Below, one piece after another: positions 20,840-41,773 of a DNA stretch of 64,000 nucleotides; position 1 is the first letter of the stretch; each line of letters starts with the position of its first letter. The position numbers were made by a program, and so were the translations under genes. The DNA comes from an uncultured Eubacteriales bacterium. Lineage in GTDB: Bacteria > Bacillota > Clostridia > Peptostreptococcales > Anaerovoracaceae. The notes below the pieces were generated by a model. It saw only the letters and a list, made by a program, of their open reading frames with translations. It searched no databases and was not told the DNA's origin. The stretch covers positions 1-64,000 of the forward strand of contig CACYHR010000005.1 in the NCBI GenBank assembly GCA_902774265.1. The letters run 5' to 3'.

Positions 20840-21934
20840 TCAGGACTGCCGGATAATGGCTTTGACTATGTTAGGATGCTCAGCATCGGCATCATAATTG
20901 TATGACAAATCTTTGAGAGACCCTTTGAGCAGTTTATATGACAGACTGTTTTCAGAGTCTGCAGGGTCGAACTTCTCACCATCGTATTCAACTGTTATCG
21001 AAGCTTCCTCATTGCTCTCTGAGTATTCTATGGTCATCAGAAGAGGGGTTTTCTTCAGCACGTCACTCAGGATCTGGGTGGCAAGTTCTTCAAAGGTAAG
21101 CCTGATTTGATATTTTGTACGAGGCGGCACATCATTATGCAGACAATAACGGTCTATATCCGTTCCGACGCCCACGAAGTCGAAGTTTTCATCGCCGATC
21201 ATAAGTTCAAGTACCTTCAGCTTATGTATGAAACGTCTCGTCGCCTGTTTCTGAGGGTTATCAAAGACCTGTTCAGGAGGTCCGTCTTCATAGATCCCGC
21301 CCTCATCCATATAAAAGACGCGGTTGCATATAGCTCTGGCGAAATTGAGCTCATGTGTTACGATCATCATGGTCTTGCCTGTGTGTGTCAGATCGCGTAT
21401 TACAGCCTGAACTTCTCCCACCATGGTTGGATCCAGTGCACTGGTAGGCTCATCAAACAGGATGACCTCAGGATCCATGGCAAGAGTTCTGGCGATGGCC
21501 ACTCTCTGCTTTTGTCCTCCTGACAGCTGCTCCGGATACTGCAGCTCTCTGCCTGCAAGGCCGACCTGTTTCAGCAGTTCCAGCCCCGTTTTGTATGCTT
21601 CCGGCTTGGATTTTTTCAATATATCGATCTGCGGCTGCATCAGGTTTTCGATTACGGTCAGATGTCCGAAGAGATTGAAGGACTGGAATACCATTCCCAT
21701 CTTGCGCCTGGCCAGTGTAACATCGTAGTTCTGCGCCGTGATCTCCTCTCCGTCCAGGATTATCTTTCCTCCGGTCGGACGTTCCAGCAGATCGATGCAT
21801 CGTATCAATGTGGATTTGCCCGTACCTGAGGGGCCGATGATAGAAATCACATCGCCATCATTGATCACGACATTCACATCCCTCAGGGGCACAGCGTTTT
21901 CATATTTCTTTTCCAGATGAATCAGTTCAATCAT
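20840..21934 (-). CDS. Amino-acid ABC transporter ATPase (GlnQ-like) with C-terminal GHKL-like domain
   Basis: 364 residues. The first ~240 form a standard polar-amino-acid ATPase: GPSGTGKST, MVFQSFNLFGHLTV, LSGGQKQRVAIARTLAMDP, ILFDEPTSALDP and VTHELNFAR. About 120 extra residues follow. There, LTFEELATQIL, ITVEYDGEKFDP and a LKDLSYNYD...NIVKAII ending resemble the E/N helix, the DxGxxFDP loop and the last strands of RsbW/HATPase_c_2 folds, though the N-box asparagine is missing. Normal GlnQ proteins end near residue 245. The gene overlaps the upstream substrate-binding/permease gene by four bases. A paralogue with the same extension lies at 24843. Confidence 0.88.
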   Translation of the reverse strand: MIELIHLEKKYENAVPLRDVNVVINDGDVISIIGPSGTGKSTLIRCIDLLERPTGGKIILDGEEITAQNYDVTLARRKMGMVFQSFNLFGHLTVIENLMQPQIDILKKSKPEAYKTGLELLKQVGLAGRELQYPEQLSGGQKQRVAIARTLAMDPEVILFDEPTSALDPTMVGEVQAVIRDLTHTGKTMMIVTHELNFARAICNRVFYMDEGGIYEDGPPEQVFDNPQKQATRRFIHKLKVLELMIGDENFDFVGVGTDIDRYCLHNDVPPRTKYQIRLTFEELATQILSDVLKKTPLLMTIEYSESNEEASITVEYDGEKFDPADSENSLSYKLLKGSLKDLSYNYDADAEHPNIVKAIIRQS

Positions 21935-24276
21935 TTGTATTCCGTCCCTTCCAGAATTTCCTCAGGTGTTCTTTGTCTCGGATCCATGCGGATCTCAATC
22001 TTGTTTACTATGCGGGTCAGTATGGCCGCCAGGATATAATATATCACAGCCACAGCTATCAGCGGGAAAAAGGCTTCGTATGTACGGCTGCGGATCAGAT
22101 CGCCAACCTTTGTCAGATCCTGAACGGCAACATATCCTACAATAGCTGTTGCCTTGATAAGTGCAGTGATCTGTGCCTTGTATGCCGGCATGAAGTGCGG
22201 CATTGCCTGAGGCAGGATGATGCGGAAGAAAGCGCTTCTGTCTGCATATCCGAGAGCATAGGCAGCCTCGAGCTGTCCTCCGTCGATCGCGTTGACTCCC
22301 GCCTTGAGCATGCCGTATACCGAAGCGGCAAATATCAGGGTGAAGCCTACGATGGATACGGCTGTTCCCGAGATTCCCGATCGTGCGAATACGATATAGT
22401 AGAGAATCATGAGCAGGACGACAACCGGCATTCCCTGTATGAGCCATACATAGAAACGAGTGATACTCAGGGAAATCGGATTATTCTTCCTGCAGAGCAT
22501 GAATATGATGAATCCCAGTATGCTTCCGAAGAGTATCGAAAGGAAGGTGATGATCAGAGTCGTTGCGATGCCCGCAAGGAAGAGTTTCCAGCGTCCTTCC
22601 GTTATAAAAGTCTTCCTGAAGCTGTCCTTGATCGAAGCTATAAATGAGACTGACTCATCATCATTTTCCGGTTTGAGATATCCGATCACGGAATTCCACT
22701 CATAGATCGGATCTGAGAAGTTGACACTCTCCTGTCTTTCAGGGGTAATGGCTATCGCGCCTATTGCAAGATCGCATTTTTTCGAAGTGACGGCATCAAC
22801 GATCCCTCCGACATTTGTATCAATGACTTCGAGACCGTATCCATTCGCTTCACAGAAGCGTACGACGATATCATAATCCATACCGGCTGTACGATTGTCA
22901 AGGATATACACTGCCGGCGGTGTACCTCTGTCAGCTGCCAGACGCAGTGTTCCTTTTGTTGCAGGAAGATCCGATGGCTGCTTCACAGTTTTTTTGCTTT
23001 CGTCCTTTCCATACCAGATACTGTCCAGCTCTTCCATGGTACCATCGGATTTGATCTGCTTAAGGAATGCGTTGAATTCCTCGCGCAGGGCATCACCTTT
23101 TTCACTTTTCGGGAACAAGGCCCCCGTCTCAAACGGATCTGCAAGCGGTTCATCCTTGAGATATGTCAGATCGTCATTCTCGATCATCATATACCGGATG
23201 ATCATATCCGGATTCACCATGGCATCTTCCTTGCCCTGTCTCATAGCCACCAGCATGTCAGAGTGGGTATTATAGTAACTGACTTTTGCCGTAGGTATCG
23301 CTGCTTCTGCCAGCTGGCCCTGTATTGCTCCGCTTAATGCTGCGATGCGTTTGTTTTTGAGATCGTCAAGAGATTTGTATTCTGTTCTCTGTGCGGTATT
23401 GACGGAGCCTGTGCCTGCCGGCTGCTTTGCCCTTACGATAAGCTCAAAGGCAGCAGGATAGTATTCCAGAAAATCAGCAGCTTTCTTTCGCTCATCACTG
23501 ACTATGATTGAGCCGGCTCCTATGTCTGCCTTCTCCGATTCAATTGAAGCCATGACTGCCGAGAACTCCATGCCGGTGAATTCCACGTGCACATCGAGCT
23601 TCTTTGCTATGAGCAGTATCATCTCAATGTCAAAGCCTTTGAGTTCTCCGTCTTTACCTACATAACTCATTGGCTCCAGCGAGTCACATACAGCTGCCCT
23701 AACGGTACCGCCCTTGCCCGGCCAGTCCTGTTTCGGCATGGTCTTGGCCGCTTCATCGGAGCCTGTCCATTTTTTCCACAACGCATTCTTGGTCTTTTCC
23801 GGAATGCTTTCGTAGGCATCCTGCCATTCATCCCTGATCGTGCTTCCCTTGGAAAAGGCAAAACCAAACACTCCGTCCTGAAGGTCTTTCGGGAACAAAG
23901 CCATATCCTCATTCCGGTTGAGGGCGAGGGTAACGACTGCATTGTTCATCAGGATCGCATCGGTCATATCGTTTCTCAGGGCCAGTATCATATCCGCCAT
24001 GCTGTTGTAGTATGAGAACTCGCCTACGTCCGGCACCTTGCTGCGTACGAGATCCTCAAAGGGTGCTCCCGTAAGCATGGATACTCTCTTTCCGGAAAGA
24101 TCGGGATAATCCTTAAACTCCGGAACAGGATCATCTGCGGCAAAGGCACTGAAGCCGACCGCAAAGACTGCCGAAACAAGCAAAGCGACCAGCATAAACC
24201 GGCAAATGCCTCTTCTGATTCTTTTGCTTCTTTTGTTTCCGCACATAGTATTATTCTTCATCAATTTCGCTGACAC
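21931..24276 (-). CDS. Fused amino-acid ABC protein: two permuted substrate-binding domains plus permease
   Basis: About 781 residues. A membrane anchor/signal (FMLVALLVSAVFAVGFSAFA) is followed by four half-domains in the order lobe 2, lobe 1, lobe 2, lobe 1 of the SBP_bac_3 fold. Lobe 1 starts are TVRAAVCDSLEPMSYV and LRLAADRGTPPAVYI; lobe 2 starts are GKRVSMLTG and NKRIAALSG. The normal order is lobe 1 then lobe 2. A His/Glu/Gln-type permease follows from about residue 570, with the coupling segment EAAYALGYADRSAFFRIILPQA. GTG 24276 is chosen because AAGGAG lies 11 bases before it; ATG 24261 is possible. Likely imports a polar amino acid with the ATPase it overlaps. Confidence 0.85.
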   Translation of the reverse strand: MSAKLMKNNTMCGNKRSKRIRRGICRFMLVALLVSAVFAVGFSAFAADDPVPEFKDYPDLSGKRVSMLTGAPFEDLVRSKVPDVGEFSYYNSMADMILALRNDMTDAILMNNAVVTLALNRNEDMALFPKDLQDGVFGFAFSKGSTIRDEWQDAYESIPEKTKNALWKKWTGSDEAAKTMPKQDWPGKGGTVRAAVCDSLEPMSYVGKDGELKGFDIEMILLIAKKLDVHVEFTGMEFSAVMASIESEKADIGAGSIIVSDERKKAADFLEYYPAAFELIVRAKQPAGTGSVNTAQRTEYKSLDDLKNKRIAALSGAIQGQLAEAAIPTAKVSYYNTHSDMLVAMRQGKEDAMVNPDMIIRYMMIENDDLTYLKDEPLADPFETGALFPKSEKGDALREEFNAFLKQIKSDGTMEELDSIWYGKDESKKTVKQPSDLPATKGTLRLAADRGTPPAVYILDNRTAGMDYDIVVRFCEANGYGLEVIDTNVGGIVDAVTSKKCDLAIGAIAITPERQESVNFSDPIYEWNSVIGYLKPENDDESVSFIASIKDSFRKTFITEGRWKLFLAGIATTLIITFLSILFGSILGFIIFMLCRKNNPISLSITRFYVWLIQGMPVVVLLMILYYIVFARSGISGTAVSIVGFTLIFAASVYGMLKAGVNAIDGGQLEAAYALGYADRSAFFRIILPQAMPHFMPAYKAQITALIKATAIVGYVAVQDLTKVGDLIRSRTYEAFFPLIAVAVIYYILAAILTRIVNKIEIRMDPRQRTPEEILEGTEYK

Positions 24277-24429
24277 TTTTGTGATTTCTCCTTTGCAATT
24301 ATCAGATTTCACAAAAAACAGAATTAAATTCAGTCTCAATTATACAACAAGTGTCAAATGAAACACTATTGTCGATTATTCGGATAAATATATATTTTTG
24401 CTATGTCATGTAGTATTATAGGATTTGAT

Positions 24430-24711
24430 ATGAAGATACGTCAGCATATAGTTTTTTATGGATGGGTGCAGGGTGTCGGCTTCAGATACAGGGCAAGACA
24501 GGCTGCGGAAATGTATGGTGCAACCGGCTGGGTCAGGAATGATCCGGGTGGTTCTGTTACGATGGAGATACAGGGAACCGAAGAACAGATCAGCAAAGTG
24601 ATAATTGCTATCGAAAGAGGCACATATGTAAAGATAGATAATATGGACGTCAGATCGATCCCTGTTGATGAAAACGAACGAAGCTTTAAGACCTTATTCT
24701 CTTTTTTTTGA
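24430..24711 (+). CDS. acyP: Acylphosphatase
   Basis: 93 residues, normal length. FYGWVQGVGFRYRARQAAEMYGATGWVRN contains the phosphate-binding loop with its arginine and the catalytic asparagine. It hydrolyses acyl phosphates. The gene lies on the plus strand between two minus-strand ABC operons. The 27 bases to an earlier ATG at 24403 lack a ribosome site. Confidence 0.92.
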   Translation: MKIRQHIVFYGWVQGVGFRYRARQAAEMYGATGWVRNDPGGSVTMEIQGTEEQISKVIIAIERGTYVKIDNMDVRSIPVDENERSFKTLFSFF

Positions 24712-24728
24712 CAGGGAGGAGACGCAGA

Positions 24729-24775
24729 CTTCCGTCCTCAAGGCTCTTACAGCATAAAGGACGGAAGCTTTATTT
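24729..24775 (+). terminator. Rho-independent terminator of acyP
   Basis: CTTCCGTCCT (24729-24738) and AGGACGGAAG (24758-24767) form a perfect ten-pair stem followed by CTTTATTT. Confidence 0.85.
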
Positions 24776-24842
24776 GATATGTAGTGAGAGAGAGGTGTTT
24801 GTCAGCCTCTGCACGATACCTTTCAGTGCAAGCCGCATTTTT

Positions 24843-25931
24843 TTATTTAGTGAATATCTTGATTTTGACAGTGCTCATCCCTGTTTTTTCATCATAGTCG
24901 TAGCTTTGATAGCTGCTGAATACATCGATCAGCTGAAGAGCCAGCCGGTCGTCTGTGTTGCCCGGTCTGTAACTGCCCGGATAGCTGACTGTTATGTATG
25001 CTGACTGATGCTTCTCCGAATACTCCGTTACTATATTTATTTTCGGCTCCGGAATCACAGGCAGCAGTATAGCAATGCAGAGTTCTTCGATGACAGACCG
25101 AATGCCGTAACAGAGCTTATCAGGTATCCTGTTTTTGAAGCAGTACTGCTCGATATCGGTTATAGCACCGACAAAGTCATAATCCCTGCTGTCAACAAAG
25201 AGTTCAAGCACTTTGAGTCTTCTTACGAATCTGCGGGTCTTATCTTTGACCGGATTATCAAAGACCTGTTCGGTGCTTCCGTCCTCGTAGATGATCCCCT
25301 CATCCATATAGAACACGCGATTTGAAACTTTTTTGGCCAGACGCATTTCGTGAGTTACTATCATCATGGTCTTGCCGCTTTTGGCGAGGTCTTCGATTAC
25401 CGCTTCGACTTCACCTACCATCGTCGGATCGAGTGCGCTTGTAGGTTCGTCGAAAAGTATTATCTCAGGATCCATTGCGAGCGTACGCGCGATGGCGACA
25501 CGCTGTTTCTGACCTCCGGAGAGGGAGGAAGGATATTTCAGTGCTCTCTCAGCAAGTCCGACCTGACGAAGCAGGGCGATACCTCTGTCATAGGCCTCCT
25601 GCCTGCTGAGTCCCAGCAGCTTGACAGGGGCATACATTATATTCTCTATAACGGTCATATGGTTGAAGAGATTGTATGACTGGAACACCATGCCCATCTT
25701 CTGACGCATCTTGTTTATGTTGCAGCCCGGAGCGGTGATTTCCTCTCCGTCAACGAATATCTGTCCGCCTGTAGGAGGATCGAGAAAGTTCAGACACCTC
25801 ATCAGAGTGGATTTGCCCGTGCCTGACGGTCCGATGATAGCGATTGAGTCACCTTCATTTACCGTAGCGTTTATATCCTTAAGGACCGTTGATGTTCCGA
25901 ATGTCTTTTGCATATGTCTGAATTCAATCAT
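24843..25931 (-). CDS. Amino-acid ABC transporter ATPase with C-terminal GHKL-like domain (paralogue)
   Basis: 362 residues. The ATPase core matches its neighbour at 20840: GPSGTGKST, LSGGQKQRVAIARTLAMDP, LFDEPTSALDP. The C-terminal ~120 residues (from RLKVLELFVDSRDYDFVG) align with the extension of the first ATPase but are more divergent: IRSVIEELCIAIL, AYITVSYPGSYRPG and QSYDYDEKTGMSTVKIKI. The FDP motif is replaced by RPG, so nucleotide binding by this domain is unlikely. It overlaps the upstream gene by eight bases and presumably energises the 25924 permease. The two operons are a tandem duplication. Confidence 0.88.
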   Translation of the reverse strand: MIEFRHMQKTFGTSTVLKDINATVNEGDSIAIIGPSGTGKSTLMRCLNFLDPPTGGQIFVDGEEITAPGCNINKMRQKMGMVFQSYNLFNHMTVIENIMYAPVKLLGLSRQEAYDRGIALLRQVGLAERALKYPSSLSGGQKQRVAIARTLAMDPEIILFDEPTSALDPTMVGEVEAVIEDLAKSGKTMMIVTHEMRLAKKVSNRVFYMDEGIIYEDGSTEQVFDNPVKDKTRRFVRRLKVLELFVDSRDYDFVGAITDIEQYCFKNRIPDKLCYGIRSVIEELCIAILLPVIPEPKINIVTEYSEKHQSAYITVSYPGSYRPGNTDDRLALQLIDVFSSYQSYDYDEKTGMSTVKIKIFTK

Positions 25932-27495
25932 CTGTTTTCACCCCTTTCAGGACTTTTGCTTCACTTCTCTTTTCAGGATCGACAGAGAGCGTTATCCTGC
26001 TTACTATCGCGGTAAGTATCGCAGAAATAACAAAGTATATCACTGCCACCGCGACAAGAGGGAAGAATGCTTCGTATGTGCGGCTCCTGACTATGTCGCC
26101 CATCTTGGTGAGATCCTGAACCGCTATATAACCGACAACAGCCGTTGCTTTGATAAGGCTGACGATCTCTGATTTATACATCGGCATGAAATGCTGAGCC
26201 GCCTGTGGCAGTATGATGCCGAAGAAGGTCTCTCTGTCTGTAAAGCCCAGCGCGTACGATGCCTCGGTCTGACCGTCATCCACAGCTCTGACACCGGCAA
26301 GTATCATGCTGTATACGGCAGCCGCGAACACGAGAGTGAATCCTATTACCGATACCCACATACCGCTGATCGACACTTTGCCCAGTACTACATAGTAAAG
26401 AAGCATCAGCAGTACGATTACAGGGAGGCCCTGAACGAGCCAGACGCAGAATGCCGTTACTTTGTTTGCGATAAATCCGCCTCTTCTGCACCAGAGATAC
26501 AGCAGGAATCCAAGCAAAGTACCCAATATGACCGAACACACAGTGATCAGTATCGTGGTAAGTATTCCCTGAATGAAGAGCTTGTATCTGCTCTCCTGTA
26601 TGAAAGTCTTATTGAAGCTGCTTTTGATCGAAGCTATTATTCCGCCTTTGGATGAAGATTCATTGAGATAGGCGATCTTTATCTGTTCGTAATAATCAGG
26701 TACTGAGAAATAGGCGTTCTCTTTGCGCTCTTCAGTAGCTGCGATTCCGGACGCTCCGAAGTCGCACTTTCCCGACTGTATGGCAGGCATCAGGGCGTCG
26801 AAGTTCATATCAATAAGATCGATGCCGTAGCCGTATTCCTTGCAGAATCTGACTGCCAGATCCACCTCATAACCCACGAGCTCGTTATCCGCAAAATAAT
26901 CATATGGCGGGAATGTACCCTCGGTAACAAATTTCAGTGTGCCGTTATCAGCAGGAAATGAGCTGTAATCATCGATGACTTTCAGTGATTCGTCTTTTCC
27001 GGTCCAGACTTCGTGCAGATGTGCGAGTTCTCCGCTTTCCTCGAGTCCGGTAATAAACGCATCCATCTGTCCGACAAGAACTTCACCTTTTTCGTTCTTC
27101 GGGAAAAGGAAGCAGGTACCAAACTCGCCCATAGAATCTTTCGTCAGGGATATGTCCCCGTTCTGCTTCATGAGTTCCCTTATAGTTGATTCCGTACCGC
27201 ATATCCCGTCGATCTTCTTAGCCTTGAGGGCATTGATCTCATCTGTGAAAGTACTGAAATATGCTATTTTTGCATCAGGCATCACCTCAGCGATCATTTT
27301 GTCAAAAATACTTCCTGTCTGCACACCTATTGTTTTGTCGCTGAAATCTTCGATACTCATATCCGCAGCGGCTTCGCCTTCATCTGCGCTGCCGCCGGCA
27401 AACACGAAAGAGCACGAAAGCATCAGAACTGCCGCCAGAGCAAGACATACTCCGATCGATCTCATCCTTGCATAGAACTGTCGATTCTTTATCAC
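25924..27495 (-). CDS. Fused amino-acid ABC protein: permuted substrate-binding domain plus permease
   Basis: About 523 residues. After a signal anchor (SIGVCLALAAVLMLSCSFVFAGG) comes a single substrate-binding domain in permuted order: lobe 2 (DKTIGVQTGSIFDKMI to VWTGKDESL) and then lobe 1 (TLKFVTEGTFPPYDYF to ENAYFSVPDYYE). The permease starts near residue 300 and carries EASYALGFTDRETFFGIILPQA. It is the one-domain relative of the two-domain protein at 21931. GTG 27495 is chosen for its GGGAGG ten bases upstream, the same arrangement as in the paralogue. Confidence 0.85.
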   Translation of the reverse strand: MIKNRQFYARMRSIGVCLALAAVLMLSCSFVFAGGSADEGEAAADMSIEDFSDKTIGVQTGSIFDKMIAEVMPDAKIAYFSTFTDEINALKAKKIDGICGTESTIRELMKQNGDISLTKDSMGEFGTCFLFPKNEKGEVLVGQMDAFITGLEESGELAHLHEVWTGKDESLKVIDDYSSFPADNGTLKFVTEGTFPPYDYFADNELVGYEVDLAVRFCKEYGYGIDLIDMNFDALMPAIQSGKCDFGASGIAATEERKENAYFSVPDYYEQIKIAYLNESSSKGGIIASIKSSFNKTFIQESRYKLFIQGILTTILITVCSVILGTLLGFLLYLWCRRGGFIANKVTAFCVWLVQGLPVIVLLMLLYYVVLGKVSISGMWVSVIGFTLVFAAAVYSMILAGVRAVDDGQTEASYALGFTDRETFFGIILPQAAQHFMPMYKSEIVSLIKATAVVGYIAVQDLTKMGDIVRSRTYEAFFPLVAVAVIYFVISAILTAIVSRITLSVDPEKRSEAKVLKGVKTDD

Positions 27496-27621
27496 CTTTG
27501 TTAAAACCTCCCTGATTTTGTGAGAAAAACTAAGCTGCAAAAAGCATTAAGGCTATTCTATCATAAATCAAGTGATAAAATACAAGGTCTTTGTAACTAT
27601 ATTTATACGCAGATATGAGGT

Positions 27622-27808
27622 GATTCAACCAGGAGCAAAGCTCCAACAAGCTCGCTTGATTGGAGCGAGCGACGCCGTCAACAGACACCGGGAGCTTCAG
27701 CTCCTGAGAGCATCAGTGGCATCAGTGGGGGATTGTTACCCACCACTGATGGTCGAAAATGGAACCCGCCGCCTGAGAGGCGGGGGACATCCGGTGTCTG
27801 TTATTTTT
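27622..27808. repeat. Palindromic repeat element, longest copy
   Basis: Runs from TGATTCAACCAGGAG to CCGGTGTCTGTTATT. It contains several hairpins: GCTCCAA/TTGGAGC, GGAGCT/AGCTCC, CAGTGG.GGG with CCC.CCACTG, and CCCGCCGCCT/AGGCGGGGG. Compared with the copy at 39959 it has 69 extra bases (27632-27700) and a nine-base tandem duplication (CATCAGTGG at 27711-27728). No coding capacity. It lies in the 447-base gap between the divergent ABC operon and the next gene, and accounts for most of that gap. Confidence 0.85.
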
Positions 27809-27942
27809 TTTTATGTTAAGAGCTGCATTGTATGATACAATTAATAAAACAAATGCCGCTTTATAAATTATTTTTTGTATAATTAATGAGACGGCATTAT
27901 TTATACTGCATAATGTCTGCAGAGAGAGGAGAACTCCTTCGG

Positions 27943-30186
27943 GTGAATTCATTTCGTACAAAAATCACATCACTGACTGTCAGCATCGGTATTATTATAT
28001 GCATTGCTGCAGTTGTTTTTGCATTTTCTATCAGTACTTTGCCTGCTTTGGCTGCTTCAGGAGAGGAAGCCGGTGACTCTTTGATTGTAGGAGTTCCGAC
28101 AGATCGTTGTCCTGTTTTTTATTTGAATGCGGACACAAAAGAGATCACAGGCATAGGTACGGATCTGATGCGTCTTGCGGCGGAGAATGCAGGTTACAGT
28201 GTTTCTTTTAAGGCTGTAGAGGAGGAAACTCTCAAAGATGCACTTGACAATCCCTCGTACGATCTGATAATGCCTTTCGGAAGTGCTATCCCAAGCAGCT
28301 CGGGGAAGGCGAGTATCGTTTCGGATAATATTATGCGGACTCCGTTTACACTTGTGACTGCCGACAGCAGGTCGATACGGAAGTTTAACGATCTGCATGT
28401 AGGAATGCTGAGCTCGCTTGCGGCCGGTGCAGAGACTGTACGACAGATGTATCCGGGGATGGAGATAAGTCTTTACGAGACCATGCCTGAATGTGTAAAG
28501 GCGCTTCGCTCCGGTGAGGTGGACGCACTGCTGCACAACTCATATGTATGGAGTTATGTACTGCAGAAACCTTCCTACAGTGATCTTACAGTGCAGCCGA
28601 CAGCAATGTTCTCTATGGATTTCCGCGCCGGTACGCCGGATACTCCGGAGGGACAGGCGATAATTGCCCGCCTGAACAAAGGTATCGCTTCGCTGAGTGA
28701 CACACAGAGACAGGCTGTTATTCTGGACCACACCTCCAGAAAGCTGTATCAGTATGACCTTTCCGATTATATTTACCAATACGGTCTGGCAATCATTATG
28801 AGCATTATTCTGGTTATTCTGCTGGCTGTAATCACGGTGCAGAGGATACGTGCCGTAAAGAAATCACATGAGGAAAAAATGCGTCAGCTGATGGATTACG
28901 ATCCTATGACCGGTCTCTACAACATGAACGGATTCCGCAAACGGGTGGAGGAACTGCTTCGTACGCATCCGGATGCACCTTATTTCCTGTCTTATAACAA
29001 TATAAGGGATTTCAAGTTTATAAATGACAGTCTCGGGCGGGAGGCCGGGGATGAACTCCTTAAGTTCTGGGCAGAGCGTTCTGCCGAAAATCTGTCTGAG
29101 GAGGACGAGGCAATCGGAAGGATAGATGCAGATCATTTTGCCGTTCTCCGCCATATAGTAGAAGAGGAACGGATGCGCGAAGACGAAATAAATGTACTTA
29201 CGCCTGTTCATGATTTCTTTATAGATCAGGGAAAAGAGTACAGAGTCCAGATATGCAGCGGCATTTATGTTCTGACACCGAAGGACTTCAGGAATATCGA
29301 TGTTGATCATATGCTTGATCTTGCCCGCGTTGCAGAGAAAAGGGTCAGAGACAGCCGCAAGGGCGCCTTTGAGTTTTATAACCCTGAGCAATGGGATAAA
29401 GGTAAGAGGATAGCTGAGATCATCAATTATCTTCCTGCTGCGATCAGGGCCGGAGATATACAGGTCTGGTATCAGCCGCAGGTCAATTATGAGACAAAAA
29501 TGATCACAGGAGCGGAAGCCCTGTGCAGATGGGATCATACAAAACTGGGATGGCTGTATCCGTTTGACTTCATTTCTACGCTGGAGGAAGCAGGACTGAT
29601 ATTTGATCTGGATACTTTCGTATGGGAAAGCGTTTGCAGGGATCTGCACAGATGGAATGAGCAGGGAGAACACAGATCGGTTTCCGTAAATGTATCCCGT
29701 GATGATATCCGGGATGACAGGGATATAAGCGATCATTTCCTTAATCTGGTCAGGACTTACGATCTGACTCCTGATCAGCTCCATATTGAGATCACCGAAA
29801 CTGCCTATGTTGAAAATCCGGAAATACTGATAAGCACAACAGAAAAATTGAGAACACTGGGATTTCAGGTGGAAATGGATGATTTCGGGAGCGGATACTC
29901 TTCGCTGCACATGCTTAAGGAGGTGCCGGTGGACAGGATCAAGCTGGATCTGCACTTCCTGACTGCATCGGGAGATCGGGAGAAATCCCGCATAATTGTA
30001 CGGAATATAACACGTATGATAAACGAGCTGGGCATGAATATGATAGCAGAGGGTGTTGAGACTGAAGCTCAGGCCGATTTCCTGAAGAATATCGGCTGTG
30101 ATGAGATGCAGGGCTATTATTTCTACAAACCTATGCCGGTAAATGAATATGAGAAGCTGAGTGGCCAAATACAGGAGAATCGATAA
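27943..30186 (+). CDS. Substrate-binding-domain/GGDEF/EAL membrane protein (c-di-GMP phosphodiesterase)
   Basis: About 747 residues. A signal anchor is followed by an extracytoplasmic SBP_bac_3 domain in normal lobe order (LIVGVPTDRCPVFYL onward), then a transmembrane helix (IIMSIILVILLAVITV). The GGDEF domain has lost its signature (RIDADHF), while the EAL domain is complete: GAEALCRW, IEITETAYVE, DDFGSGYSSL, DRIKLD, AEGVETEAQ. It probably hydrolyses c-di-GMP under control of an extracellular small ligand, perhaps an amino acid. GTG 27943 follows GAGAGGAG by 11 bases and sits directly before the signal sequence; ATG 27886 and 27913 lack ribosome sites. The neighbouring ABC genes carry related binding domains. 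Confidence 0.85.
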   Translation: MNSFRTKITSLTVSIGIIICIAAVVFAFSISTLPALAASGEEAGDSLIVGVPTDRCPVFYLNADTKEITGIGTDLMRLAAENAGYSVSFKAVEEETLKDALDNPSYDLIMPFGSAIPSSSGKASIVSDNIMRTPFTLVTADSRSIRKFNDLHVGMLSSLAAGAETVRQMYPGMEISLYETMPECVKALRSGEVDALLHNSYVWSYVLQKPSYSDLTVQPTAMFSMDFRAGTPDTPEGQAIIARLNKGIASLSDTQRQAVILDHTSRKLYQYDLSDYIYQYGLAIIMSIILVILLAVITVQRIRAVKKSHEEKMRQLMDYDPMTGLYNMNGFRKRVEELLRTHPDAPYFLSYNNIRDFKFINDSLGREAGDELLKFWAERSAENLSEEDEAIGRIDADHFAVLRHIVEEERMREDEINVLTPVHDFFIDQGKEYRVQICSGIYVLTPKDFRNIDVDHMLDLARVAEKRVRDSRKGAFEFYNPEQWDKGKRIAEIINYLPAAIRAGDIQVWYQPQVNYETKMITGAEALCRWDHTKLGWLYPFDFISTLEEAGLIFDLDTFVWESVCRDLHRWNEQGEHRSVSVNVSRDDIRDDRDISDHFLNLVRTYDLTPDQLHIEITETAYVENPEILISTTEKLRTLGFQVEMDDFGSGYSSLHMLKEVPVDRIKLDLHFLTASGDREKSRIIVRNITRMINELGMNMIAEGVETEAQADFLKNIGCDEMQGYYFYKPMPVNEYEKLSGQIQENR

Positions 30187-30226
30187 TTGAACGCAAAAGG
30201 TAATAGTTGCGGCACAGATTATAATA

Positions 30227-31414: not shown

Positions 31415-31483
31415 GGCATTTAACTGTTTATCGGAGATCAGCTGAAAGAATAAATAATAGATTTGCATTTGCGGGAGTTTATT

Positions 31484-33952: not shown

Positions 33953-34038
33953 AAATCTAAAAGAATATTGAAAAAAGGGGAATGAGACTGAGAGATGAGT
34001 AGACCGGATAATATAAACTGCGTAGTTGATGTGACAAA

Positions 34039-34067
34039 TTGAAATAAGTATGCCTTTTTGGTATGAT
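34039..34067 (+). promoter_or_regulatory. Promoter of the ATP-grasp/MATE/GGDEF operon
   Basis: TTGAAA (34039-34044), 17-base spacer, TATGAT (34062-34067). The start codon is 60 bases downstream. The rest of the 33953-34127 gap is AT-rich and shows nothing else. Confidence 0.65.
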
Positions 34068-34127
34068 TTTTTTAAAACAGTGCTAATGGTTTCGGTTTCA
34101 CAATTTTTTATCAGTAATAAATAGATT

Positions 34128-35831: not shown

Positions 35832-35842
35832 AAAAGCATGAA

Positions 35843-37576
35843 ATGGAAAGGTCAAACCGTCTTCTAAAGCGTAAATTTATACAATATCTGATACCGACTA
35901 TGATCACAACGGCCGCTGTCTCACTGAATGAGTTCGTGGACAGCATGCTTGTCTCAAATCTTCTCGGAAGTGAAGCACTTGCAATTATCAATATTGGAGT
36001 GCCGGTTATGCTGACTATGTCTGCTGTCAGCGTTCTGTTTGGTGACGGAGGAGCGACAGCATATGCTATCGCTGAAGGCAATCGTGATCATGACACTGCC
36101 GGAAAGAGCTTTACCGGTTCAATGGTCGCGGCATTAGCTGCCGGACTGTTGCTGTTTTTATGTGTTGCTATCACCGGACCGATCGCCGGAGCGCTGTGCA
36201 GTGATCCGGATCTGATTATTCCTTTCACGAAATATCTGACTATCCTGTTTATTTCCTCGCCTTTTATCGTTGTGACGCTCACAGCTGCCTGCTTTCTCCC
36301 TTCAGCCGGATATCCGAAATTAGCAATGATATTAAATGTGATTGCTAATGTTATCAATATTATCATGGACTATGCATATATCCGCTTCTTTCACATGGGA
36401 GTGGAAGGTGCTGCTTATGCAACCATGACCGGATATATATGTGCTGCTTTAGTCATGCTGATCGCTTTGCTGCGCCGCAGGGTGAAGCTTTATGTCTGTC
36501 GGGATATAGCCGGATCCTTAAAAGTGATGAATGATGTGTTCCGTTTCGGCATGTCTGAAGCACTGAACCAGCTCGGACTGGGAATACAGTTTGCTGTTAT
36601 CAACAGTCTTGCTATGTCGATCGCCGGTTCTGCAGGCGTTGTGGCATTCTCTCTTTGTATGCAGGCTAACTCTATTATCTCTGTTTTCGTTGGAGCCGTA
36701 ATAGGAGCTTCGGTTCCTTTGCTGGCTGTACTGCACGGACAGCGTGATTACAAGGGTGAAGCGGGGATACTGAAAACATCGCTGATCTGGACCTTTGCGA
36801 TTTCCGTTGCAGGTACCGCCTTTTTCATATTATTTGCATCACAGACAGCCGCACTTTATAATATTACCAAAACTGCAGAGCTTGCGTTATCCATTACTGC
36901 ACTTCGTATCTATTCGCTGTCCCTTATTCCGAGATGTGTAGTAGTCGTATATTACCGCTATCTGAAAGTGATCGGACTGACAGTCTATGCAAGTGTATTG
37001 AGCGCTCTGGACAGCTTTGTGCTTATCATCCTGCTTGCATATACAATGAGCATTTTCATGGGAATCACCGGACTCTGGTTCGCTTTCCCGCTGTCTGCAG
37101 CTGTGCTTTTGCTCGTGACGCTGGTCTGCAATCTGTATTTTGCCCCGCGTTCAGGCGGCAGGCTCAACGGGCCGCTGCTGATCGAGCATGACGAAGATGT
37201 GAAACCTGTAATGGATGTTACTATTTCCGGGGAATCGGAGGATATATCCGCTATAAGCGGTAAACTGCAGGAGATTTGCCTGGATCTGGGCATGGATACA
37301 AAAGATGCAGTTCTTGCATCGCTGGCGGTGGAGGAGATTGCTGTCAATGCATCCGCACGGCTGAACAGCAGCAGTTATTCGGATGTGCTGGTCCGTATAA
37401 ACCATGGCTGTGTGGAAATCGATTTCAGGACACTTGGCAAAAGCTTTGATCCGATGGAGGAAAATGATGAACGACTGCATGAGAATATGCTCATTCTTAA
37501 AAATATATCATCAAAAATTGAACATGATTATATACTGGGGATGAATTCCACGAGGATAACTCTGGAAGGAAGATAA
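35843..37576 (+). CDS. MATE-family exporter fused to a GHKL (RsbW-like) domain
   Basis: 577 residues. Residues 1-440 are a twelve-helix MATE transporter (FVDSMLVSNLLGSEALAIINIGVP at the start, GVEGAAYATMTGY in the middle). About 120 cytoplasmic residues follow. LASLAVEEIAVNA keeps the glutamate and asparagine of the GHKL N-box, LGKSFDP matches the G1 loop of RsbW-type kinases, and the ending ILKNISSKIEHDYILGMNSTRITL fits the last strands. Plain MATE proteins end near 450 residues. The domain could bind ATP or an anti-sigma-factor antagonist and gate transport. It shares an operon with the ATP-grasp ligase and the GGDEF protein. Confidence 0.85.
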   Translation: MERSNRLLKRKFIQYLIPTMITTAAVSLNEFVDSMLVSNLLGSEALAIINIGVPVMLTMSAVSVLFGDGGATAYAIAEGNRDHDTAGKSFTGSMVAALAAGLLLFLCVAITGPIAGALCSDPDLIIPFTKYLTILFISSPFIVVTLTAACFLPSAGYPKLAMILNVIANVINIIMDYAYIRFFHMGVEGAAYATMTGYICAALVMLIALLRRRVKLYVCRDIAGSLKVMNDVFRFGMSEALNQLGLGIQFAVINSLAMSIAGSAGVVAFSLCMQANSIISVFVGAVIGASVPLLAVLHGQRDYKGEAGILKTSLIWTFAISVAGTAFFILFASQTAALYNITKTAELALSITALRIYSLSLIPRCVVVVYYRYLKVIGLTVYASVLSALDSFVLIILLAYTMSIFMGITGLWFAFPLSAAVLLLVTLVCNLYFAPRSGGRLNGPLLIEHDEDVKPVMDVTISGESEDISAISGKLQEICLDLGMDTKDAVLASLAVEEIAVNASARLNSSSYSDVLVRINHGCVEIDFRTLGKSFDPMEENDERLHENMLILKNISSKIEHDYILGMNSTRITLEGR

Positions 37577-39099
37577 TGTTTTCTGAAAAAGGTGTAGAGG
37601 GATTTGCTATGGGTACGAAGAAAAGATACTTTTCGATAAGGAAGAAAATGAATATATTCATTGTCGTTACTATGCTGGCGGTGGCTATGGGAACATCTGC
37701 GATCGCATTCAGGACAGAAGCGGCGGATCAGATCGACCGGTATTATAAAAGCAACACGGCTGACAACGCACGCAATTTTGCTACCATGGTCGACGGCGAC
37801 TTTCTGAAGGAACTTCGCAAAGTTGCTGAATCAGACGAATTCCAGGCTCTCCGTGAAAAAGCCGAAGCCGAAGACAATGAAGCTCTGATCGAGGATTATC
37901 TGCGGGATAAAGGCCTTTGGGAAAAATACAGCATGACACGCGACAGGATCAGCACGTATCTTGATAACATGAAAGGAATCAAGTATCTGTATATCGTTGC
38001 TCACGGTGATGCGAATGCTGAGTATGATATGTACCTTGTAGATGATGAGACTACTCCTCTTTATGAGACCGGTTACTATGAGGAGCGGGAAGCTGAGCTG
38101 CGCGGGATGGATATTTCCGACCTTCCTGAGCCGACGATCTCCAACGGGGACTGGGGATGGCTCTGTTCCGATTTCAAACCGGTCTATTCATCGGATGGTG
38201 AATGCGTATGCATAGTGGGATGCGATATAGGCATGGATGATGTCATGTCAGAACGTCAGAAACTGCTGATCGTCCTGATAGTCGGTGCGCTGGTTTTCAC
38301 TTCTCTGGTGCTTGCAGCTGCGATCATGTTTGTCAGCAGAATCATTGTAAAGCCGCTGAACAGTATGACAAGAGCAATGAAGGAGTTCACTCCTTCCGAA
38401 ACACTCAGCTATGAGGAAGCCGGAGTGATCGATATCGATATAAAAAACAACGATGAGATAGGCGAGATATATAATGGCATACGGGATATGCAGATCCATA
38501 TCATCGATTATCTGAGGAACATGTTCGCACTTCAGGAAGACAAAAAGAAGGCTGAGGATGATCTGAGACACAAGGATGAGCAGATCGATATGCTGAGTAT
38601 AGAATCCAACACGGATGCACTGACCGGTGTCGGCAACAAGACTGCATATATAAAGAAGATGGATGAGCTGAACCGGAAGATGAGAGAATCCGATATATAT
38701 TTCGCCATCGTAATGGTCGATATAAACAGGCTCAAACATATCAATGACGACTACGGACACAGATCCGGTGATGTCTACATAAAGGGCTGCTGCCACATGG
38801 TATGCGAAACATTCAAGCATTCGCCTGTTTTCAGGGTAGGAGGAGATGAGTTTGTGGCTGTTCTGATGGGAACGGATTATGAAAACCGAATGGCACTGGT
38901 CAGTCAGCTCAGGTCGGATTTTAAAAAAACATATGAACAGGAAGGCGTCTCTCCGTGGCTCAGATATTCTGCTGCTGTCGGCATGGCGGAAAACGCATCT
39001 GTAGACAGTACGGCTGAATTCGTTTTCAGACGCGCAGATGAGGAGATGTACAAGGATAAGGACCGCTTTAAGAACAGGTATGGCACGGACAGCAGATAG
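37576..39099 (+). CDS. Membrane diguanylate cyclase with extracytoplasmic sensor and HAMP
   Basis: 507 residues. Two membrane helices (about 25-47 and 230-255) flank a ~180-residue outside domain of Cache type. HAMP and a coiled coil precede a GGDEF domain with intact RVGGDEF at about residue 422 and no RxxD site, so cyclase activity is expected. The start overlaps the MATE stop codon by one base (TAATG), indicating coupling. ATG 37609 is a possible internal start. The extracellular part may sense a ligand linked to the upstream exporter; that is inference. Confidence 0.88.
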   Translation: MFSEKGVEGFAMGTKKRYFSIRKKMNIFIVVTMLAVAMGTSAIAFRTEAADQIDRYYKSNTADNARNFATMVDGDFLKELRKVAESDEFQALREKAEAEDNEALIEDYLRDKGLWEKYSMTRDRISTYLDNMKGIKYLYIVAHGDANAEYDMYLVDDETTPLYETGYYEEREAELRGMDISDLPEPTISNGDWGWLCSDFKPVYSSDGECVCIVGCDIGMDDVMSERQKLLIVLIVGALVFTSLVLAAAIMFVSRIIVKPLNSMTRAMKEFTPSETLSYEEAGVIDIDIKNNDEIGEIYNGIRDMQIHIIDYLRNMFALQEDKKKAEDDLRHKDEQIDMLSIESNTDALTGVGNKTAYIKKMDELNRKMRESDIYFAIVMVDINRLKHINDDYGHRSGDVYIKGCCHMVCETFKHSPVFRVGGDEFVAVLMGTDYENRMALVSQLRSDFKKTYEQEGVSPWLRYSAAVGMAENASVDSTAEFVFRRADEEMYKDKDRFKNRYGTDSR

Positions 39100-39146
39100 T
39101 TAAGCTGCTTTTAAGCTATTTTGATGAAATTAATTGATTGCTGTGT

Positions 39147-39180
39147 TATAATATCTGCAGTTGTCCGGAAATTGTCCGGA
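39147..39180 (+). promoter_or_regulatory. Promoter with direct repeats before the DUF1269 gene
   Basis: TATAAT at 39147-39152 with an upstream TG (extended -10). Directly after the expected start of transcription, TTGTCCGGA occurs twice (39161-39169 and 39172-39180), eleven bases apart, i.e. on the same DNA face. This suggests an operator. Confidence 0.55.
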
Positions 39181-39213
39181 TGAGTATAGTTTATTTAAAA
39201 GGGGAAATTTATC

Positions 39214-39798
39214 ATGGACAAAAAGAACGTTGACAAGAATGTAGTAGTAGCAGTATTTAATGTTGAGAGCGAAGCATATAAGGCTCTTACCGAATTGAGA
39301 CAGACAGCATCAGGAGCAACATATCTTGTTTCTGCGGCAGCTTTGGTCAAGAAAGAAAACGGCGCCTGCCGTCTCCTTGACGGATTTGATACCGGCGCTG
39401 ATACCTCAAAGGGTACAGCTGTAGGAGGAATTGTAGGAATGGTTGTCGGTGCACTTGCCGGCCCTATAGGAATGCTTCTCGGATTAAGCACCGGTTCGCT
39501 GATCGGAATGAGTTCTGATGCAAGCAATGCTGCATACGGAGCATCTATGCTTGAGCAGATCGCAGATAAGCTTGATGATGATACGGTTGCTATCATAGCT
39601 ATCACAGACGAAGAGACAGAAGAGGCTCTTGACGGCAGACTGTCAGCTTACGATACTGTTATCGCACGTTTCGACGCAAAGGCAGTAGCTGCAGAAGTTG
39701 ATGAAGCTTATAAGATGCAGGATGAGATGGCAAGACAGGCAAGAGAAAAACTCCGCGAGGAGAATGCCGAGACTCTCAGACAGAATTTCACAAAGTAA
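39214..39798 (+). CDS. DUF1269-family protein
   Basis: 194 residues. The N-terminal strand VVVAVFNVESEAYKALTEL and the central glycine-rich hairpin (GTAVGGIVGMVVGALAGPIGMLLGLSTGSLIG) match DUF1269 proteins, which resemble general stress proteins with a membrane-inserting glycine segment. The C-terminal ~40 residues are a charged helix. A strong ribosome site (AAGGGG), its own regulated promoter and a strong terminator indicate a single, well-expressed gene. Function of the family is not established. Confidence 0.8.
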   Translation: MDKKNVDKNVVVAVFNVESEAYKALTELRQTASGATYLVSAAALVKKENGACRLLDGFDTGADTSKGTAVGGIVGMVVGALAGPIGMLLGLSTGSLIGMSSDASNAAYGASMLEQIADKLDDDTVAIIAITDEETEEALDGRLSAYDTVIARFDAKAVAAEVDEAYKMQDEMARQAREKLREENAETLRQNFTK

Positions 39799-39824
39799 TA
39801 AAGAATTATTACTGCAGACATAGA

Positions 39825-39853
39825 GCGCCAGCATTGCTGGCGCCCTTTTTTGT
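39825..39853 (+). terminator. Rho-independent terminator of the DUF1269 gene
   Basis: GCGCCAGCA and TGCTGGCGC form a near-continuous stem, followed by CCTTTTTTG. Confidence 0.9.
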
Positions 39854-39958
39854 TATTTGCCTGAAATGTGATACAATACTTTACAGAATCTGCAATTGAA
39901 GAGATAAATGAGTATATATAGGATGTGTGTGCATTATGACTGCTTTTTTAAGCTGTAA

Positions 39959-40064
39959 AAATAACAGACACCGGATGTCCCCCGCCTCTTAGGCGGCGGG
40001 TTCCATTTTCGACCATCAGTGGTGGGTAACAATCCCCCACTGATGCTCTCAGGAGTGGTTGAAT
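39959..40064. repeat. Palindromic repeat element, intermediate copy (inverted relative to 27622)
   Basis: Starts AATAACAGACACCGGATGTC and ends GGTTGAAT. It carries the CCGCC/GGCGG and CAGTGG/CCACTG hairpins with the same bulge pattern as the copy at 27622-27808, but lacks 69 internal bases. It ends nine to twelve bases before the start of the symporter gene, so it may supply or replace the leader of that mRNA. Confidence 0.88.
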
Positions 40065-40075
40065 ACATGTAGTTG

Positions 40076-41773
40076 ATGCGGGAGCGTGCTTTGAACAAAA
40101 GGAAAAAGAGAATCTACAATAATAGGACTGCATTTAATGTTAAGGATGCTGATTGCATTACAAAGTGCATGACATTTATTGAATCTGAACTTGAAACTAT
40201 CGGAATCGAAGCAAATTATGCGTTCAGGGCTGAACTTCTCTCCGAAGAGATGACAGCTTTTCTGATAGAGAATTCAACGGGTGATGGTGAGATCAGAATT
40301 CAGGTCAAAAAGATGATCGGCGATACCATTATCACAATCAGCGCCAAGGGAAATGAGTTTGATCTGTTCGGGGATGAAAGCAGATTATCTGATGATCTGG
40401 ATGATGATGAGGCTGAGTATATTATAAGATCCATAATCCTGAGGTCTCATGGAGAAAACCTCAAATACAGCTGCAATAAAGGGATAAACAGAGTACGGAT
40501 CAGCCTCGGAGATTCAGAGGTTACTTCTACGAAGCTTACAATTGCCGCCCTGGTCCTCGGGATACTGTTCGGACTCGTGGTCAAATTTTGTATGCCTGAA
40601 GCAGCTGCTGCAGGGGTATGTGAGTATCTTCTTTCACCGGTCAGTACAATGTTTATGAATGCTCTCAGGATAGTAATTGCTCCGGTAGTATTCTTCTCGA
40701 TAGTCACATGTATATCCGGATTCGGGAATCTGGCAGAGCTCGGCAGAATAGGCATTAGGATCATGTCTCTGTATCTGCTGACGACTGTGTTAGCTGTCGT
40801 AATGGCATACGGTGTTACCACTCTCTGCAGCCCGGGGAAATTCGGAGCAGGACTTGCAATGACAGGCGTGCAGTCTGTTGAAGTAAATACGGATATAGAC
40901 ACTTCACTGCTGAATACCATAATAAATATTGTGCCTTCAAATATTGTCCGGCCTTTTCTTGAGGCGAATACACTGCAGCTGATATTCCTTGCAGTGATGA
41001 TAGGTATCGCGCTTGGGAAGATAGGAAAGTACACGCCGGTGCTAAATCAGTTTTTTGAGGCCTGCAACTCGCTCTTCCTGACAATAACAACGATGATCGC
41101 AAAGTTTATTCCGATTGCGGTATTCTGCTCTGTATCTATGATGCTTATCAAACTGGGCGGATCATCGTTCCTGTCGCTGCTCGGATATGCTGCGACTAAT
41201 TTGCTTGAAATATTTATCATGCTCATGATCTACGGCGTGCTTGTATTGGTTCTGGGCAGGGTAAATCCTCTGACATTTTACAGGAAGAACAAAGAGGGAA
41301 TGCTGACAAGCTTTACACTCAGTTCAAGCTCTGCTGCCATGCCTGTCAATTTAAGTACATGTACGGAAAAGCTGGGGATATCACCCAAGGTCTGTAATTT
41401 CTCCATACCTCTTGGAGCAACCATAAATATGGACGGAACCTGCATCAGCCTTATTCTGCAGGGATTGTATCTGGCCAAAATGTACGGGGTAACTGTAACG
41501 CCTTCTATGGTTCCGACTCTCATGATAACGATAATACTGCTGTCTCTCGGATGCCCCGGCGTTCCAGGCGCAGGACTTGTCTGTCTCGGTATTGTACTTA
41601 CACAGCTTGGCGTGCCTGTAGGTTCAATAGGACTGATTCTGGCTATAGATCCTGTCCTGGATATGTTTGACGCAATGTCGAATACTACGGGAGATGTAGC
41701 CTGCGCCCTGATTACTGCAAGCAGGGAAGGCCTTCTCGACAGAAAAATATTAAACGATATGAGCAGAGTGTGA
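40076..41773 (+). CDS. Dicarboxylate/amino-acid:cation symporter with N-terminal GHKL-like domain
   Basis: 565 residues. Residues ~155-560 are a DAACS (GltP/SstT-type) symporter: serine-rich TSFTLSSSSAAMPVNL re-entrant loop, PLGATINMDGTC, and the C-terminal DPVLDMFDAMSNTTGD substrate/sodium site. It imports glutamate, aspartate, serine or a dicarboxylate. The first ~145 residues are extra: LLSEEMTAFLIEN, ITISAKGNEFDLF and YIIRSIILRSHGENLKYSCNKGINRVRISL follow the helix, G1 loop and closing strands of RsbW-like folds, with most catalytic residues lost. Start is ATG 40076 or TTG 40073; no clear ribosome site, because a repeat abuts it. An RsbU-like phosphatase gene follows. Confidence 0.85.
   Translation: MRERALNKRKKRIYNNRTAFNVKDADCITKCMTFIESELETIGIEANYAFRAELLSEEMTAFLIENSTGDGEIRIQVKKMIGDTIITISAKGNEFDLFGDESRLSDDLDDDEAEYIIRSIILRSHGENLKYSCNKGINRVRISLGDSEVTSTKLTIAALVLGILFGLVVKFCMPEAAAAGVCEYLLSPVSTMFMNALRIVIAPVVFFSIVTCISGFGNLAELGRIGIRIMSLYLLTTVLAVVMAYGVTTLCSPGKFGAGLAMTGVQSVEVNTDIDTSLLNTIINIVPSNIVRPFLEANTLQLIFLAVMIGIALGKIGKYTPVLNQFFEACNSLFLTITTMIAKFIPIAVFCSVSMMLIKLGGSSFLSLLGYAATNLLEIFIMLMIYGVLVLVLGRVNPLTFYRKNKEGMLTSFTLSSSSAAMPVNLSTCTEKLGISPKVCNFSIPLGATINMDGTCISLILQGLYLAKMYGVTVTPSMVPTLMITIILLSLGCPGVPGAGLVCLGIVLTQLGVPVGSIGLILAIDPVLDMFDAMSNTTGDVACALITASREGLLDRKILNDMSRV

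Follow-up and report, generated by a model that had tools for sequence, protein, structure and literature searches.

A mostly inactive RsbW-like kinase domain shared by ABC, SDF and MATE transporters of Clostridia and its probable role as a switch

Introduction

Partner switching is best known for freeing sigma factors. Its classical forms, RsbU/RsbV/RsbW and SpoIIE/SpoIIAA/SpoIIAB, combine a PP2C phosphatase, a STAS protein and an RsbW-like kinase, and SypE/SypA is counted among such systems. The kinases RsbW, SpoIIAB and UsfX (HATPase_c_2, PF13581) are anti-sigma factors. Here, a domain related to these kinases is described on four transporter proteins encoded in a stretch of 64,000 nucleotides from an uncultured Eubacteriales bacterium (GenBank assembly GCA_902774265.1, contig CACYHR010000005.1, positions 1 to 64,000; hereafter the window): two GlnQ-type ABC ATPases, a MATE-family exporter and an SDF (DAACS) symporter. 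The extensions of these proteins share with RsbW, SpoIIAB and UsfX the fold, the order of secondary-structure elements and the glutamate of the N-box helix. They differ in being fused to transporters, in the loss of the Mg/ATP motifs from the ABC and SDF forms, in the missing lid loop of the ABC form and in having no known sigma partner. In common with classical partner switching, genes for STAS proteins, RsbW-like kinases and PP2C phosphatases occur, and they cluster with the carriers above controls; the proposed output is a transporter rather than a sigma factor.

Regulatory domains on transporters are known with other folds: the importer ATPases MalK, MetN and OpuA (CBS) carry a C-terminal regulatory domain after the nucleotide-binding domain. 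The closest parallel in domain type is given by the SLC26/SulP transporters, described in PMC8256260 as carrying a C-terminal STAS domain, so that there, too, a transporter bears a domain of the partner-switching type. The present case is the mirror image: SLC26/SulP proteins carry the STAS half, and three unrelated families carry the RsbW half here. PMC11418112 treats PP2C control of STAS proteins serving transcription, and the word "transporter" is absent from it. Among the papers listed by searches of the open-access literature, which leaves out most of the subscription and preprint literature, none described RsbW/HATPase_c_2-transporter fusions, and a description may have been missed; such fusions may also stand without comment in public tables of domain architectures. 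Described here is a partner-switching kinase domain on three unrelated transporter superfamilies, in some cases beside other switch genes.

Results

Four Transporters of the Window Carry Additional Domains

A first-pass annotation of the window, made from the sequence alone, had assigned an RsbW/GHKL-like extra domain to four open reading frames, and their coordinates were confirmed. ABC ATPase 1 (20840..21934, minus strand, 364 aa) belongs to a GlnQ-type amino-acid ABC transporter and matches PF00005 at residues 17-165 (E 1.5e-34); its C-terminal pseudo-RsbW domain comprises residues 237-364 (20843..21226). ABC ATPase 2, likewise GlnQ-type (24843..25931, minus strand, 362 aa; PF00005 E 5.4e-36), ends in a corresponding domain (24846..25223, minus strand) that is recovered by the ABC-extension profile with E 2e-40, a profile that includes this protein itself. 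The MATE-family exporter (35843..37576, plus strand, 577 aa; PF01554 E 1.2e-23) carries its RsbW-like domain at the C-terminus (37148..37573, residues 436-577). In the SDF dicarboxylate/amino-acid symporter (40073..41773, plus strand, 566 aa; PF00375 E 2.8e-93, residues 155-549), the pseudo-RsbW domain is N-terminal (40073..40528, residues 1-152). The extensions amount to 126-152 extra residues. The transporters had been called four unrelated proteins; the families are indeed unrelated, but since the two ABC ATPases are paralogous (37% identity between their extensions, ABC ATPase 2 being the more divergent copy), there are three and not four.

A scan of the window proteins with Pfam and NCBIfam returned models for the ABC, MatE and SDF cores and none for the extensions, and none of the four transporters reached the gathering cut-off of HATPase_c_2. 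Three shared motifs had been proposed. The helix with an E-E pair was borne out: the pair is invariant in each family alignment of extensions from the genome of the window, and in a larger alignment its second glutamate occurs in 85/85 ABC, 16/17 MATE and 22/23 SDF extensions. The G-x-x-F-D loop was found in ABC ATPase 1 (DGEKFDP), MATE (LGKSFDP) and SDF (KGNEFDL) but not in ABC ATPase 2, which reads PGSYRP. MATE (GMNSTRITL) and SDF (GINRVRISL) clearly show the closing G-x-N strand pair; it is not clear in either ABC protein, ABC ATPase 1 retaining the asparagine alone.

The Extensions Are One Homologous Domain

Comparison of the family profiles by hhalign yielded E values of 2.4e-11 for MATE vs. 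SDF, 4.3e-11 for ABC vs. MATE and 1.1e-6 for ABC vs. SDF. With 62 ABC extensions, the values were 4.2e-10 (ABC vs. MATE) and 1.3e-7 (ABC vs. SDF), and against seven RsbW-like sequences they were 7.8e-8 for ABC, 1.4e-13 for MATE and 7.8e-8 for SDF. The real scores of 43-71 compare with at most 20 among 60 column shuffles per comparison (seven comparisons) and with 11-20 for reversed profiles. Profiles from a single family also found the domain on the others: the MATE-only profile recovered the window extensions of ABC ATPase 1 (E 2.3e-7) and SDF (E 1.6e-6), and the SDF-only profile recovered ABC and MATE extensions as well as free RsbW-like proteins in other genomes. The shuffled and reversed profiles together with this cross-family recovery exclude a chance resemblance. 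The ABC, MATE and SDF extensions are one homologous domain.

Paralogues in the same genome connect the domain to HATPase_c_2. The PF13581 cut-off was exceeded by two MATE proteins (C4, E 5e-16; C28, E 5e-15), in which the domain is C-terminal, and by one SDF protein (C13, E 4.4e-6), in which it is N-terminal; the MATE extension of locus L029 also lies above it. The window MATE extension matches seven other MATE extensions of its genome (E 3e-8 to 0.09), the window SDF extension matches C13 (E 4.1e-7), and the extension of ABC ATPase 1 matches five further ABC ATPases. One of these five lies inside a 919-aa chain of binding protein, permease, ATPase and extension (L205:5551-8307). Among PDB sequences, the MATE-extension profile identified RsbW (6m36, E 3.2e-4). 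The SDF-extension profile alone found no RsbW among PDB sequences; the ABC profile ranked RsbW (E 1.8) below a chance match to latexin (E 0.035), and 18/62 ABC members touched HATPase_c_2, with a best E of 0.001.

Structure Models Show an RsbW/SpoIIAB Fold

The extension of ABC ATPase 1 was modelled by AlphaFold2 from an alignment of 62 rows containing ABC extensions only, with a predicted local distance difference test score (pLDDT) of 94.2 and a predicted template modelling score (pTM) of 0.88. In a Foldseek search of the PDB, the top nine chains were UsfX, RsbW and SpoIIAB (E 2.8e-6 to 6.6e-4, TM-score 0.61-0.76), and the next match followed at E 0.047. The SDF extension (pLDDT 86.7, pTM 0.79; 21 alignment rows including RsbW-like, MATE and ABC sequences) showed the same order of elements, and its top 13 Foldseek matches were all UsfX, SpoIIAB or RsbW (best E 9e-8). 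Both models display the E-H-H-E-E-H-E-E Bergerat-type fold of solved RsbW/SpoIIAB structures. The ABC and SDF extensions are thus predicted to have the RsbW/SpoIIAB fold, and the MATE extension is tied to this domain by its sequence match. Separate folds are ruled out for ABC and SDF by the structure models; for MATE, a shared fold is supported by sequence. Neither an unrelated fold nor a model without GHKL topology was obtained, and the RsbW/GHKL assignment of the first-pass annotation is supported.

The Nucleotide Site Is Lost or Altered on Transporters

Active-site residues were counted in one common alignment in which near-copies were retained. The N-box Glu and Asn and the G1 Asp and Gly were all kept in 7/8 free RsbW-like proteins, 3/4 STAS-APH-RsbW and 4/5 PP2C-RsbW proteins, and in 1/17 MATE, 0/23 SDF and 0/85 ABC extensions. 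In the ABC form, Glu-Glu is present in 85/85, Gln replaces the N-box Asn in 75/85 and Tyr replaces the G1 Asp in 83/85; the first glycine of the GGLG lid motif falls into a gap in 84/85, and the lid loop is shortened in every ABC row of another alignment. MATE extensions retain the N-box Asn in 10/17 and the G1 Asp in 14/17, the first glycine of GGLG is mostly lost, and Cys stands for the G1 glycine in 10/17. In the window copy, the alignment shows the N-box Asn retained and the DxG aspartate gone. The six residues found most often at the G1 position of SDF extensions do not include Asp.

The ratio of nonsynonymous to synonymous substitution rates (dN/dS) of the ABC extension was 0.055-0.252 in 38/39 pairs, which are not independent of each other, and undefined in one; that of the adjoining ATPase domain was 0.026-0.146 (38/39 pairs). 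Five columns are invariant across 62 diverse ABC extensions, and 14/22 invariant or nearly invariant columns of the 62-row alignment lie in residues 16-53, i.e., in the two N-terminal helices. This pattern points to a binding face that would be kept while the nucleotide site is not. Since motif loss in the ABC form is family-wide, conserved and under purifying selection, this form is pseudokinase-like and not decaying. The earlier view of a differing degree of decay did not hold in this respect, and dN/dS and the family-specific invariant residues led to the rejection of decaying leftovers for the ABC form. The ranking that went with it was upheld, as MATE is best preserved by motif counts and, of the two ABC ATPases, the one at 24843 has diverged further.

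In a midpoint-rooted tree with 22/85 ABC rows, long branches and a bootstrap that had not settled, the ABC extensions formed one group (100/100), the SDF extensions one (99/95) and the MATE extensions two; free RsbW-like, STAS-APH-RsbW and 4/5 PP2C-RsbW rows grouped together (100/99). This suggests a small number of early fusion events with later expansion.

Occurrence in Gut and Rumen Clostridia

The genome of the window (3.26 Mb, 110 contigs, 90.8% complete) encodes 22 extended transporters, namely 9 MATE, 7 SDF and 6 ABC, which agrees with the earlier proposal of a general transporter module; 7/8 of its SDF proteins carry the extension. The SDF-only profile had matches in 21 of 99 genomes of the same family. 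Thirty loci analysed from this search, of which two belong to the window's genome, comprised 17 SDF, 4 MATE, 2 ABC, 1 PP2C and 4 free or STAS-fused RsbW-like proteins, with L113 and L126 unclassified. In 11 family genomes picked for an SDF-profile match, where the extension was judged by frame length, 28/35 PF00375 rows lay in frames of 456-623 aa, six in frames of 400-449 aa, and one was a fragment. The distribution of the domain is patchy.

A search across 84,980 species, each represented by a single genome, revealed 108 loci with relatives of the ABC extension, of which 80 were kept for analysis. These are mostly labelled Lachnospiraceae, Ruminococcaceae/Oscillospiraceae or Clostridia, with rumen and gut as sources; single loci are labelled Coriobacteriaceae (L049) and Erysipelotrichaceae (L063). 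Carriers include the cultured Butyrivibrio sp. AC2005 (L034), Lachnospiraceae bacterium JC7 and Oribacterium sp. C9. At 65/80 loci, Walker A and LSGG motifs are in frame with the extension, and by phmmer ATPase and extension share one frame at 78/80, the exceptions being L054 and L065.

Some Carriers Co-Localise with Switch Genes

Several loci combine extended transporters with STAS, RsbW and PP2C genes. An SDF gene with extension follows STAS and STAS-APH-RsbW in one operon (L142) and STAS and RsbW in another (L143); at L145, two overlapping SDF genes with extensions are accompanied further downstream by STAS and PP2C-RsbW. With other genes possibly intervening, the orders are extended ABC, PP2C, STAS-APH-RsbW, STAS and extended MATE at L053; extended MATE, PP2C and RsbW, then extended ABC, at L029; extended ABC, two extended MATE genes and STAS at L072; and extended ABC, STAS, PP2C-RsbW and STAS at L043. 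Extended MATE genes occur with STAS, PP2C and RsbW at L196 and after PP2C at L195. Free RsbW-like proteins adjoin carriers at L143, L189, L196 and L029. Pfam agreed for all ten neighbour-type proteins scanned (two of them, from L157 and L231, not near carriers), and two of three PP2C proteins scanned carry dCache sensors. In the window, a gene for a SpoIIE-type PP2C phosphatase (41863..43605, plus strand; PF07228 E 5.9e-48), a candidate switch input, lies 89 bp beyond the end of the SDF gene on the same strand.

STAS, RsbW or PP2C genes within 8 kb of a carrier were counted as markers. They were found at 5/21 SDF, 4/10 MATE and 16/78 ABC loci; of the ABC markers, 28/30 lie on the carrier's strand. 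Regions around control transporters without extension had a marker in 1/20 and 0/20 cases. With SDF and MATE pooled, 9/31 loci compare with 1/40 controls (Fisher p 0.0018), the second 20 controls having been added after the first test and the SDF and MATE test then repeated; with the first 20 alone (focal gene recovered in 17), the differences were not significant (SDF and MATE p 0.059, ABC p 0.14). All 40 control regions were counted, including nine in which phmmer did not re-find the focal MATE, one of which (L241) has an extended SDF gene at its edge. Ten of the 16 MATE candidate regions L187-L202 represent extended MATE genes and were counted; excluded were L194 (its extended SDF gene is already in L156), L198-L201 (PP2C-RsbW or STAS-APH-RsbW) and L202 (extension not found). 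The marker counts are low estimates, as one STAS protein or more escaped the phmmer queries (L229 was recovered by PF01740); many regions end early at contig ends, and independence between loci is incomplete, L035, L036 and L037 being nearly identical to each other.

Since the ABC genomes differ from those of the MATE and SDF controls, the ABC test rests on genome-wide STAS density, determined for 50/80 ABC loci in 49 genomes (219 STAS matches in 130.6 Mb). Near extended ABC genes, 13 STAS reading frames in 9 loci compare with 1.15 expected, about 11-fold over genome density, with flanks counted by phmmer and genomes by PF01740; the binomial p of 2.4e-10 is overstated because STAS genes cluster. 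Near carriers, STAS reading frames outnumber those for RsbW by 20 to 13, with fusions counted in both. Carriers co-localise with STAS, RsbW and PP2C genes above controls, in a minority of carriers, and the gene neighbourhood thereby lends support to the regulator role suggested in the first-pass annotation.

The window's genome encodes 12 near-complete PP2C domains (15 rows), five STAS proteins and two free RsbW-like proteins. Its best match to the SigB/F/G model (TIGR02980) reached 142.8 bits vs. a cut-off of 234.35 in an assembly that is 90.8% complete.

Discussion

The mostly inactive copy of a signalling kinase on three transporter families is probably a switch that lets a phosphorylation circuit tune import and export. 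That the extension is a docking domain placing transporters under partner-switching control is the explanation we favour, at somewhat better than even chances. All three domain positions, C-terminal on the ABC ATPases and MATE and N-terminal on SDF, are cytosolic. A signal would act on a sensor PP2C phosphatase, which would dephosphorylate a STAS protein; the STAS protein, or the RsbW kinase itself, would bind the transporter-borne pseudo-RsbW domain and transport activity would change. A separate free RsbW-like kinase with intact motifs would reset the STAS protein by phosphorylation. In the ABC and SDF lines, where the nucleotide motifs are lost, the domain would serve as a docking site of pseudokinase type; the nucleotide site of MATE proteins is altered and partly kept. 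The transporter would replace the target that is freed or sequestered in classical partner switching. Homology, fold (for ABC and SDF), motif loss, selection on the ABC form and gene clustering are computational results; transport control, partner binding and phosphorylation flow are what we infer from these data. The broader proposal that PP2C sensors, STAS proteins and RsbW-like kinases form a post-translational network controlling how amino acids, dicarboxylates and other solutes are taken up and exported is held tentatively, at slightly less than even chances. Just as tentative is the idea that pseudo-RsbW docking domains were recruited separately into this network by ABC, SDF and MATE transporters and directly control transport across gut Clostridia.

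Sigma factors are the classical target of such switch proteins. In 31/45 carrier genomes, the best SigB/F/G match was at about 150 bits or below, and in most carrier genomes tested the switch proteins are without an obvious SigB/F/G-type target. Several observations weigh against the docking explanation. A SigB/F/G sigma factor above cut-off was found in 11/45 carrier genomes (G029 being the only positive among the 11 family genomes), where the STAS and RsbW genes may serve transcription, and for three further genomes (G107, G111 and G115) the best matches, at 197-231 bits, may be genuine. A marker within 8 kb was not found at 22/31 SDF and MATE loci, at 62/78 ABC loci and at any of the five extended ABC loci (six genes) of the window's genome. 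An SDF-profile match is absent from genome G082 of the same genus. Since the ABC form is without the lid loop, the canonical contact between STAS protein and kinase cannot be assumed for it. Finally, the SDF model is less independent than the ABC model, as its alignment contained true RsbW-like sequences.

Among the alternatives, a role in oligomerisation or stability survives best, and it is unlikely. The RsbW/SpoIIAB fold is a dimer, and the domain could merely join or protect transporter subunits without a signalling partner; the absence of nucleotide motifs from the ABC and SDF forms and of a detected partner gene near most carriers would be in line with this. However, the host families differ in oligomeric state (ABC dimer, SDF trimer, MATE monomer), so a single assembly role fits poorly, and the clustering with STAS and PP2C genes would be left unexplained.

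Next in order, and improbable, is the recruitment of a kinase, in which a pseudo-RsbW domain and a free RsbW-like kinase form a mixed dimer that brings the kinase to the membrane or transporter, the STAS protein having no direct role in transport. It would account for the motif-intact free RsbW-like proteins (7/8) adjoining carriers, and sequence cannot separate it from docking under partner-switching control; the excess of STAS over RsbW reading frames near carriers speaks against it.

A nucleotide or energy sensor that binds ATP or ADP and tunes transport to energy charge ranks third and is likewise improbable. It is suggested by the GHKL fold and by the N-box Asn and G1 Asp retained in most MATE extensions. 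However, the G1 Asp is uncommon in SDF and replaced by Tyr in nearly all ABC extensions, the latter being also without the lid loop, and most MATE forms lack the first GGLG glycine and often have Cys for the G1 glycine. That the domains are inert remnants, old fusions in decay, is very improbable: catalytic motifs are lost and some of the SDF and MATE extensions have diverged strongly, but the ABC extension is under purifying selection with five invariant columns among 62 sequences, and one genome holds 22 carriers.

Should transport be controlled by partner switching, orphan STAS, PP2C and RsbW genes in Clostridia of gut and rumen would have a function, and one small module could put very different transporters under one signal.

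Additional Observations

Each ABC ATPase of the window lies downstream of a solute-binding/permease fusion (SBP_bac_3, BPD_transp_1) that is its likely partner, encoded on the minus strand at 21931..24339 for ABC ATPase 1 and at 25924..27540 for ABC ATPase 2. The 21931-24339 product is a single chain of 802 aa that holds a permease domain, two scored SBP_bac_3 stretches and one more stretch of ligand-binding type.

The two SDF symporters of L145 (6722-8275 and 8271-9860) each have their own pseudo-RsbW domain, and their genes, on one strand, share a few bases; they may be a two-subunit or a diverging pair. A three-domain protein of STAS, APH-type phosphotransferase and HATPase_c_2 (PF01740, PF01636 and PF13581, all above cut-off) recurs in several genomes (L142:6423-8093, L157:6531-8126 and L053:10540-12111); the L142 and L053 copies stand beside extended transporters. 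In the window's genome, a STAS-APH protein is found that lacks the HATPase_c_2 domain (L231). The same genome also encodes a 430-aa protein with a C-terminal STAS domain (L229:439-1728), the N-terminal part of which is methyltransferase-like by eye and without Pfam match; the gene lies about 0.5 kb from an extended SDF gene (C25, L206), on the opposite strand.

In the window, a HAMP-GGDEF protein (37576-39099) is encoded immediately after the MATE gene, and a GGDEF/EAL-type protein, recognised by eye, is encoded at 27886-30186 amid the extended transporters.

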